Part shown: positions 14,631-18,258 of the stretch, one piece after another
How the letters are laid out: each line of letters begins with the position of its first letter
Numbering within the stretch: position 1 is the stretch's first letter
NCBI GenBank assembly: GCA_000733915.1
Contig: JPOM01000001.1
Coordinates: forward strand, 620,001-684,000
From: Caulobacteraceae bacterium PMMR1
Lineage (GTDB): Bacteria; Pseudomonadota; Alphaproteobacteria; Caulobacterales; Caulobacteraceae
Direction of reading: 5' to 3'
Length of the DNA stretch: 64,000 nucleotides
The notes under the pieces: model-generated
What the model saw: the letters and a program-made list of their open reading frames with translations, nothing else
Told to the model about the DNA's origin: nothing
Database searches by the model: none
Program-made: the position numbers and the translations under genes

Positions 14631-14659
14631 TTGGCAGAGCGCCCAGGCGGGACTATATG
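14631..14659 (+). promoter_or_regulatory. Promoter of the nadABC operon
   Basis: TTGGCA (14631-14636), a 17-base spacer, then TATATG (14654-14659): the best sigma-70-type promoter seen in the window. The predicted start, about 14666, lies immediately before operator 1. Confidence 0.65.
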
Positions 14660-14671
14660 TCGCGGGGTTAG

Positions 14672-14684
14672 GCTCACTCTGAGC
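14672..14684 (+). promoter_or_regulatory. NAD-biosynthesis operator 1 (palindrome)
   Basis: GCTCACTCTGAGC, a 5+3+5 inverted repeat sitting at the predicted transcription start. The flanking CATAA is shared with operator 2. Likely bound by a NAD-responsive repressor (NadQ- or NrtR-like); the regulator gene is not in the window. Confidence 0.65.
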
Positions 14685-14752
14685 ATAACCCTCCGGTCGC
14701 CCTCCCGCTTCGATGACTCCGGTCGGCAGAAGCGAACAGGTCTGACCCAGAA

Positions 14753-14769
14753 ATGCTCACTATGAGCAT
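14753..14769 (+). promoter_or_regulatory. NAD-biosynthesis operator 2 (palindrome)
   Basis: ATGCTCACTATGAGCAT, a perfect 7+3+7 inverted repeat, centred 83 bases after operator 1 (about eight helical turns). It is immediately followed by the AAGGAG ribosome-binding site of nadA. The spacing would permit looping between dimers. Confidence 0.7.
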
Positions 14770-14782
14770 AAGGAGTGCGGAC

Positions 14783-15871
14783 ATGGCCGACGGTTTCGCT
14801 CCCGCCTTCGCCTTCACCCCTGAGGTCGACGCCGCCACCGCGTCGGTCTGGTCCAAGGTGAAGACCCGCATTTCGCCCCTGGAGTGGCGCGCGCATGCGC
14901 CGCTGATCGAGGCCATCAACCGGCTTAAGCGCGAGAAAAACGCCGTCGTCCTGGCGCACAACTACATGACGCCGGAGATCTTCCACGGGGTGGGCGACTA
15001 TGTGGGCGACAGCCTGGGCCTGGCGCGGGAGGCGGCGCGGTCCGACGCGCGCGTGATCGTGCAGGCCGGCGTGCATTTCATGGCCGAGACGTCCAAGGTG
15101 CTGGCGCCCGACAAGACCGTGCTGATCCCCGACCTACGGGCCGGCTGCTCGCTGGCGAGCTCGATCACCGGGGCGGACGTGCGCCTGATCAAGCAGCGCT
15201 ATCCTGGCGTGCCGGTCGTGACCTATGTGAACACCACGGCTGAGGTGAAGGCCGAGACCGATATCTGCTGCACCTCGGCCAACGCCGTGCAGGTCGTGGA
15301 GGCCGCGGCCGCGGCGTGGGGGACCGATCGGGTCATCCTGATCCCCGACGAATTCCTGGCCCGCAACGTGGCCCGCCAGACCGACGTCAAGATCATCGCC
15401 TGGCGCGGCCGCTGCGAGGTGCACGAGCGCTTCACCGCCGAGGACATCCTGGAGCTGAAGGCGGCCTATCCGGAGGCGCAGGTCCTGGCCCACCCGGAGT
15501 GCCCAACCGAGGTCATCGCGGTCTCGGACTTCACGGGCTCCACGGCTGCGATGAGCGACTTCGTCGCGACCCGGCGTCCCAAGCAGGTGGTGCTGATCAC
15601 CGAGTGCTCCATGGCCGACAACGTCGCGGGCGACGCGCCTGAGACGGAGTTCGTGCGGCCCTGCAATCTCTGCCCGCACATGAAGCGGATCACGCTGCAG
15701 AACATCTACGACTGCCTGCTCAACGACCGCTATGAGGTGCGCGTCGATCCCGCGATGGCCGAGCGGGCCCGCCTCGCCGTGCAGCGCATGATCGACCTGC
15801 CGCCGCCCGCCCGCCCGGCCCGCTACGATCTGGTCAAGGCGCGCCACCACGTGGACGTGGAGCTGATCTGA
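14783..15871 (+). CDS. nadA: Quinolinate synthase NadA
   Basis: A 362-residue 4Fe-4S enzyme condensing iminoaspartate with dihydroxyacetone phosphate to quinolinate. Motifs include [12 protein letters not shown] near the N-terminus and the three cluster cysteine regions: [18 protein letters not shown] and CNLCPHMK. The start at 14783 is set by AAGGAG at 14770-14775; an upstream in-frame ATG at 14753 lies inside the operator and is rejected. The stop overlaps the nadB start (TGATG). First gene of nadABC under the paired palindromes. Confidence 0.96.
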
Positions 15872-17408
15872 TGCGCGCCCGCCGCGACGGCGAGGTCGAT
15901 CCCGTGCTGGTCCTGGGCGCGGGCCTCGCGGGGCTCAGCGCAGCGCTCGCGGCCGCCGGCGAGGGGCGGCGCGTGCGCGTGGTCTCGCCCGTCGCGCTGA
16001 ACGCGGGCTGCGCCTCCGCCTGGGCGCAGGGCGGCATGGCGGCGGCGCTGGGCGCGGACGACACCCCGGAGCTGCACGCGGCCGACACCGTCGCCGCAGG
16101 GGCGGGGCTGGTGGACCCGGAGACGGCGGCGCTCCTCACCCGTGAGGGTCCCGAGGCTGTCCGGCGCCTTGCCGCGCTCGGCGCGCCCTTCGACCGCACC
16201 GCGTCGGGGACCTTCGCCCAGAGCCTCGAGGCCGCCCACAGCCGCGCTCGCGTCGCCCGCGTCAAGGGCGACCAGGCGGGCCGGGAAATCATGCGCGCCG
16301 TCACCGCCGCCGTCCTGGCCGAGCCCCGGATCGAGGTCTGGACCGAGGCGCGGGCGCGCGCCCTGCTGCAGGATGCGACGGGGCGGGTGCGCGGCGCCCT
16401 GATCGAGCGCGCAGGGGCCCTGGCGGAGGTGCTCAGCCCTGCAGTGGTGCTGGCGACCGGGGGCCTGGGCGGGCTCTACGCCGGAACCACCACGCCCGCG
16501 CAAGTGCGCGGCGAGGGCCTGGGCCTGGCGGCCCTGGCCGGGGCGGTGATCGCCGACCCGGAGTTCGTCCAGTTCCATCCCACAGCCATCGACATCGGGC
16601 GGGACCCCGCGCCGCTCGCGACCGAGGCGCTGCGGGGCGAGGGCGCGCGCCTGGTGGACGGCGAGGGGCGGGCCTTCATGGCCGCCTACCATCCGGACGC
16701 CGAGCTTGCGCCGCGCGACGTCGTGGCCCGCGCCATCCATGCCGAGCGGGAGGCCGGGCGGGGCGCGTACCTCGACGCGACCACAGCCGTGGGCGCGAAG
16801 TTTCCGCACGAGTTTCCGGGCGTCTTCGCCGCCTGCATGGCGGGCGGCCTCGACCCCCGGGTGCGGCCGATCCCCGTCGCCCCGGCGGTGCACTACCACA
16901 TGGGCGGGGTGGCGACGGATGCGGAGGGCCGGACCTCGCTCGAAGGCCTCTTCGCCGCCGGCGAGGTCGCCTCCACAGGCGTGCACGGCGCGAACCGCCT
17001 GGCGTCGAACTCGCTCCTGGAAGCGGCGGTGTTCGGGGCAAGGGCGGGGCGGGCTGCGGCCGCGGAGCCGGGTTCATCTGGGCCGATCCTCCCTGCCGAG
17101 CCTTGGCCCGATCTACCCGCGCCTGAGCTTGAGGCGCTGCGTCGGGCGATGAGCCGCCACGCCGGCGTGGTGCGCGACGGCGAGGGGCTCTGCGCGCTCC
17201 TGGGCGAGATCGACGCCCTGGAGGCCGGCTTCGGCCGCGGTCCGGTGCTCGCCGCGGCGCGACTGGTCGCCGCCTGCGCCCTGGACCGCCGCGAGAGCCG
17301 GGGCGCTCACTTCCGCCGCGACCACCCCGAGGCCCGAGCCCCCGGCGCACCTTCACGACCTTCGCCGCCCTGGCCTACCCTCCGGCCTTCGCGCTTGCGG
17401 CTGAGTAG
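15871..17408 (+). CDS. nadB: L-aspartate oxidase NadB, with a one-base frameshift near its end
   Basis: An FAD enzyme oxidising L-aspartate to iminoaspartate for NadA. Visible are the N-terminal dinucleotide motif VLVLGAGLAGLSAALAAA, the substrate-site segments ASAWAQGGMAAALG, VQFHPTA and HYHMGG, and the FAD loop GVHGANRLASNSLLEA. The reading frame stays intact to about residue 490 (ESRGAHFRRDHPEA), then loses the normal ending. One extra C in the C5 run at 17339-17343 would restore RRTFTTFAALAYPPAFALAAE and the TAG stop at 17406-17408. As it stands, the frame continues into nadC, giving a 795-residue NadB-NadC fusion ending at 18258. Confidence 0.85.
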
Positions 17409-17412
17409 GCGC

Positions 17413-18258
17413 TTGATCCTGCCCACCTTGCCCGACGTCCTGATCGAGCCGGTCGTGCGCGGCGCGCTAGCCGAGGACCTCGGCCGGGCGGGCGACCTCA
17501 CCGCGGCCCTGATCGACCCCGCGGCGCGCCTGGAGGCGGTGTTCTCGGCGCGCAAGGCCGGGCGGGTGGCGGGGCTCGCCTGCGCGCGGCTGGCGGTTCA
17601 CGCGCTGGACCCGGACGGCGTCTTCGCCGTGGAGGTACCGGACGGGGCCGAGGTGCGCGCCGGCCAGGCCATCGCGCGGGTCCAGTGCAATGCGCGGGCC
17701 CTGCTCAGCGCCGAGCGCACCGCGCTCAATCTGCTGGGCCGGCTCTGCGGGATCGCGACCCTGACCGCCGCCTATGTCGAGGCGGTCGCCGGCACGCGCG
17801 CGCTGATCGTGGACACGCGCAAGACGACGCCGGGGCTGCGCGCGCTCGAGAAATACGCGGTGCGCTGCGGCGGCGGGGTCAATCATCGCTTCGGCCTGGA
17901 TGATGCGATCCTGATCAAGGACAATCACGTCGCGGCCTGCGGCGGCGTGGGCGAGGCGCTGAAGCGCGCCCGCGCCGCAGCCGGGCACATCACGCCCATC
18001 GAGGTGGAGGTCGACAGCTTGGATCAGCTGGACGAGGCGCTGCCGCACCGGCCGGACGTGATCATGCTCGACAACTTCAGCCTGGACGACCTGCGCACGG
18101 CGGTGGCGCGGGCCGCCGGCGCGGTCCGGCTGGAGGCATCCGGCGGCGTGACGCTTCAGACGGTGCGCGCGATCGCCGAGACCGGGGTGGACGCCATCTC
18201 GGTCGGCGCCCTGACCCACTCCGCCCCGGCGCTCGACATCGGCCTGGACGCCGTCTGA
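17413..18258 (+). CDS. nadC: Nicotinate-nucleotide pyrophosphorylase (quinolinate phosphoribosyltransferase)
   Basis: Converts quinolinate and PRPP to nicotinate mononucleotide, completing the nadABC route. About 281 residues if it starts at TTG 17413, four bases after the expected nadB stop. Seen are EDLGRAGDLT, SAERTALNLLGRLCGIAT, the PRPP-site segment DTRKTTPGLRALEKYAV, GGGVNHRFGLDDAILIKDNH and DVIMLDNF. In the sequence as given it is open and in frame with nadB, so it has no independent start requirement. No strong ribosome-binding site is visible, which suggests coupling to nadB. Confidence 0.93.
   Translation: MILPTLPDVLIEPVVRGALAEDLGRAGDLTAALIDPAARLEAVFSARKAGRVAGLACARLAVHALDPDGVFAVEVPDGAEVRAGQAIARVQCNARALLSAERTALNLLGRLCGIATLTAAYVEAVAGTRALIVDTRKTTPGLRALEKYAVRCGGGVNHRFGLDDAILIKDNHVAACGGVGEALKRARAAAGHITPIEVEVDSLDQLDEALPHRPDVIMLDNFSLDDLRTAVARAAGAVRLEASGGVTLQTVRAIAETGVDAISVGALTHSAPALDIGLDAV

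Follow-up and report, generated by a model that had tools for sequence, protein, structure and literature searches.

Two putative NadQ operators upstream of nadA

In the 64,000-nucleotide stretch of DNA analysed here (the window), the gene nadA is preceded by a promoter with two palindromic sites, O1 and O2, which, judging by sequence comparison, are very probably operators of NadQ (COG4111); the promoter, which serves the de novo NAD operon nadA-nadB-nadC, would accordingly be under NadQ repression (Table 1). NadQ operators at nadA are already known. Apparently undescribed is a terminator-like hairpin with a T-tract, located at a fixed distance before O2 in relatives: a literature search, with the 2022 NadQ paper outside its scope, yielded no description of a nadA attenuator or of terminator-operator coupling.

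Table 1. Features of the nadA promoter, leader and operon, in window coordinates.
Feature	Position	Strand	Basis and remarks
Promoter P1	14631..14659	+	-35 TTGGCA 14631-14636, 17 bases, -10 TATATG 14654-14659
Transcription start of P1	~14666	+	Prediction
O1, putative NadQ operator, AGGCTCACTCTGAGCAT	14670..14686	.	Right past the predicted start; 1 mismatch to the 17-base consensus
O1 core palindrome, GCTCACTCTGAGC	14672-14684		Sequence reading
Hairpin CGCTTC...GAAGCG	14706..14734	+	Leader fold; ends 18 nt before O2, as does the terminator-like hairpin of relatives
AACAGGTCTGACCCAGAA, in place of the T-tract and AGGCC spacer of relatives	14735..14752	+	Sequence reading
O2, putative NadQ operator, ATGCTCACTATGAGCAT	14753..14769	.	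Adjoins the nadA ribosome-binding site; 0 mismatches in the 17-base core
nadA ribosome-binding site AAGGAG	14770..14775	+	Sequence reading
nadA, quinolinate synthase, 362 aa	14783..15871	+	ATG at 14783; Pfam NadA 2e-110 and NCBIfam equivalogs
nadB and nadC, one frame of 795 codons	15871..18258	+	NadB and NadC families

The first-pass annotation had described a consensus-like promoter (TTGGCA, 17 bases, TATATG) and two matching palindromes 83 bases apart, the second touching the nadA ribosome-binding site. Both descriptions hold upon reading the sequence, as does the distance of nearly eight helical turns: the core centres lie at 14678 and 14761, i.e. 83 bp or 7.9 turns of 10.5 bp. P1 was not called by a sigma-70 scan because its last base is G; it is, however, supported by relatives, since a CTTG...TATAT element precedes O1 in most of those from the Caulobacteraceae.

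The exact 13-mer GCTCAnnnTGAGC is found at two places in the window, O1 and O2, and a genome-wide search for the motif, as the first-pass annotation had proposed, located it at six places in the 2.67 Mb genome: the O1/O2 pair is the only intergenic occurrence, and the remaining four lie within apparent coding sequence. At six occurrences per 2.67 Mb, two sites within 100 bp before one gene are far beyond chance. When two mismatches are allowed, the 13-mer yields 53 hits in the window versus 48 expected, and the motif is therefore informative only in its exact or extended form. With the 17-mer ATRCTCANNNTGAGYAT, O2 is the sole perfect match and O1 the sole one-mismatch match in the whole genome; no further sites with fewer than two mismatches were detected, a result that covers nadE and nadD at that stringency. 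Five further hits carry two mismatches each; they either fall inside coding sequence or adjoin transposase-like repeats, and no NAD genes were noticed around them. As a separate observation, two copies of a stretch with ATGCTCACGATGAGTTC that share the same downstream flank are present at G000:C1 178682 and 180741 (L011 and L012), with a transposase-like ORF near one of the copies; the likeness to the motif is probably fortuitous, the two copies being the ends of insertion sequences.

NadQ as the regulator

The published NadQ consensus is ttATRCTCannntGAGYATaa (PMC5343134), and O2 fits it at every core position, while O1 is off by one in the 17-base core. The NadQ regulon has been described in alpha-, beta- and gammaproteobacteria, with nadABC as its core and Caulobacterales among the groups (PMC5343134; structures 7q91-7q94), and the site analysed here shares with it the operator consensus, the nadABC target, the C-terminal NrtR-type winged helix of the regulator and the presence in Caulobacterales. 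It differs in having good sites at nadA alone, whereas the Caulobacterales regulon is reported to extend to nadE and nadD (PMC5343134), and in having two operators, one of which is placed in the leader by the ribosome-binding site.

The genome encodes its own NadQ, P0001 (333 aa; genome positions 1046271-1047269, minus strand), ~412 kb from the nadA site, and thus supplies the NadQ/NrtR homologue that was to be sought. P0001 matches the solved NadQ 7q91 (‘NADQ transcription factor’) nearly full length (E 8e-80, residues 22-331), and no other protein in this genome has an NrtR_WHD domain. While its winged-helix domain (PF21906) is homologous to the C-terminal DNA-binding domain of NrtR, the Nudix-related repressor of NAD metabolism, the protein falls far below the cut-off of the NtrR equivalog (58 bits versus 400 bits). 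NadQ itself is an already described repressor of the NAD pathway, and O1 and O2 would add further NadQ targets of the described type. A 171-aa ORF with a weak likeness to dual-specificity/tyrosine phosphatases (L007 2438-2953, minus strand) ends 1 base before nadQ and may be co-transcribed with it.

Almost all of the Caulobacterales leaders that we examined retain the operator sites. Phenylobacterium and other Caulobacteraceae provide the best nadA relatives; in all of these O2 is near-invariant and near-perfect, its centre mostly 20-30 nt upstream of the start codon, and O1, which directly follows the conserved CTTG...TATAT promoter, is retained as well, though mostly as the weaker of the two sites (by eye, O2 fits better in 69 of 79 pairs). 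An O1-O2 pair with a spacing of 59-76 bp is present in 158 of 299 family genomes, as compared to none for a reversed control pattern. The Brevundimonas and Asticcacaulis leaders mostly have one operator, next to the promoter.

We also sampled 40 alphaproteobacterial nadA leaders from across the class, counting as a site any match with at most two mismatches. A site is present in 36 of the 40, and all 36 of these are accompanied by an encoded NadQ; in the four site-less leaders (L108, L109, L121 and L126) NadQ is absent in three cases (hypergeometric p ~4e-4 for the co-occurrence, by our own arithmetic). Counting against the NadQ reading is G339, which encodes NadQ yet has no site within 500 bases of nadA. 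A distinct class has two NadQ sites just 22-33 bp apart, with spacings of 22-29 bp in some other alphaproteobacteria; in L116, L124, L131, L133, L135 and L136 the two sites are 22-28 bp apart and have no hairpin between them. A number of Rhizobiales-like leaders have TAGCAT as the right half of O1, 16-17 bases past TTGAC, and this half-site, by its position, probably doubles as the -10 element.

Taken together, the published consensus, the encoded NadQ, the conserved sites and their co-occurrence with NadQ agree with the NadQ link that the first-pass annotation had drawn from resemblance; the motif before nadA in relatives and an NAD-responsive regulator in the genome, the absence of which was to speak against that annotation, are both present. 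By its sequence the nadA site stands out clearly as a NadQ target, and it makes a compact model for the control of NAD synthesis. NadQ bound to O1, just downstream of the predicted start, would block initiation or promoter escape, and NadQ bound to O2, the leader site by the ribosome-binding site, would block the elongating RNA polymerase; high ATP would then release NadQ and turn the operon on. The 2022 NadQ paper, in its title and abstract, reportedly gives the basis of the ATP response. We infer that this simple picture suffices for the window.

A terminator-like element at a fixed distance from O2 in relatives

In most relatives with two operators, the O1-O2 spacer contains a G+C hairpin with a T-tract downstream. 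Using a hairpin cut-off of dG <= -8 kcal/mol (the thresholds are of our own choosing), we detected the element in 67 of 79 two-operator leaders, as compared to 11.1 expected from dinucleotide-shuffled spacers; as the sequences are related and the counts non-independent, this is a real pattern to which no exact probability attaches. In 64 of these 67 leaders (within L015-L155) the T-tract and O2 are separated by 11-13 nt, while the stretch between O1 and the T-tract can be as short as 25 nt or as long as 69 nt. What stays constant, unlike the O1-O2 spacing, is the placement of the hairpin and T-tract relative to O2. There are 63 distinct hairpins, with stems preserved through G-C, C-G and A-U pair exchanges. 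Among 82 Caulobacterales leaders, the hairpin and T-tract are found in 54 of 60 wide pairs versus 3 of 21 single-operator leaders. The element is also retained beside divergently oriented upstream neighbours (their sequences read as Dps-like or cell-wall-hydrolase-like genes), and we therefore rejected the idea that it is the terminator of the upstream neighbour. Caulobacteraceae leaders (e.g. L137-L155) also have a conserved AGGCC patch at -11 to -7 before O2, between the T-tract and O2; neither the NadQ consensus nor a terminator explains it.

A tentative reading of this geometry is that the ancestral leader was a roadblock-assisted attenuator, in which NadQ on O2 halts the polymerase at the T-tract of the terminator and thus sets read-through as well as initiation. 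A roadblocked polymerase halts ~14 bp short of the obstacle, and for one halted by an O2-bound protein this would put the active site close to where the T-tract ends; NadQ at O2 would thereby render a weak terminator NadQ-gated in the relatives. Proteins bound to DNA are known to hold up RNA polymerase during elongation and to cause it to be removed (PMC6593788, PMC6237814), and the preserved stems, the fixed distance, the retention beside divergent genes and the association with the wide two-operator layout all speak for such a function. Roadblock repression by LacI and C.Kpn2I has in common with it an operator downstream of the start that faces the elongating polymerase (PMC6593788, PMC6237814), and differs in that the nadA operator of the relatives is positioned 11-13 nt past a terminator-like T-tract. 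If the reading is true, this would be a leader repressor site placed such that intrinsic termination results from a roadblock.

The window itself speaks against it: its leader is negative in the test for an intrinsic terminator (hairpin plus T-tract), as the hairpin is present and the T-tract is absent, replaced by AACAGG. With the T-tract missing, any added termination step would be weakened or lost in the window, and the roadblock would remain. The non-independence of the counts also tempers the case, and outside the Caulobacteraceae a second promoter may account for the fixed spacing. The nadA leaders of the Caulobacteraceae, and perhaps of the Rhizobiales, could possibly constitute a protein-gated attenuator, with a NadQ operator and a terminator at a fixed distance, although we advance this with reserve; the window would be a natural variant without the T-tract and as such provides a natural comparison.

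The same spacing would arise if O2 had a promoter of its own, P2, with TTGA in the hairpin loop, the T-tract as spacer and TATATA abutting O2, such that each promoter has one operator. While we consider this explanation rather unlikely overall, outside the Caulobacteraceae a P2 abutting O2 is a serious alternative, as suggested by the leaders outside the Caulobacterales, in which TATAT is located right before O2 and TTGA is enriched ~17 bases earlier. In the Caulobacteraceae, however, neither P2 element is preserved, while the hairpin and T-tract are, and 46 of 60 leaders lack a -10-like hexamer at this position; the window has no P2 elements either.

Operator spacing and looping

The first-pass annotation had also suggested, from the helical phasing of the two sites, that the DNA between them could loop. 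In such a model, two NadQ dimers on O1 and O2 would close a DNA loop of some eight helical turns and thereby trap the promoter. While the 83 bp of this genome and the presence of two operators in most family members are compatible with a loop, its phasing is not borne out by relatives. Across 79 wide pairs the spacing ranges from 52 to 103 bp, with almost all lengths between 59 and 79 bp represented and a tail up to 103, and a Rayleigh test at 10.5 bp detected no clear phasing (R = 0.17, p ~0.1; 79 loci). The larger family set gives R = 0.20 and p ~0.003, which we do not read as phasing because the search (pattern spacing 59-76 bp) ends at 76 bp, the distribution is a single broad hump and the set is phylogenetically clustered. 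A helically phased loop is thus not supported. Many Brevundimonas and Asticcacaulis leaders, with their single operator, also speak against looping, as does the 22-33 bp class, which is too short for a loop; we know of no NadQ tetramers. Altogether, we consider the loop very improbable. Least credible of all is that a different regulator binds the palindromes, or that they function solely as RNA hairpins: both do fold as RNA hairpins, but they match the NadQ motif and co-occur with NadQ, and no Rfam riboswitch or RNA leader family matches the leader of the window or those of 16 relatives.

The nadA-nadB-nadC genes

The designation ‘nadABC’ stands as a gene order, but not as three separate frames, as nadB and nadC share one frame in the window. 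While a continuous frame might suggest a NadB-NadC fusion enzyme, we set this aside in favour of a frameshift: the genes are separate in all relatives compared, with no nadB-nadC fusion among them, and near the junction (17300-17420) the alternative frame gives a normal-looking NadB end, followed by a stop. Probably a 1-base frameshift at a run of C close to the 3' end of nadB has put the two genes into one frame; a frameshift is likely, be it real or a sequencing error.
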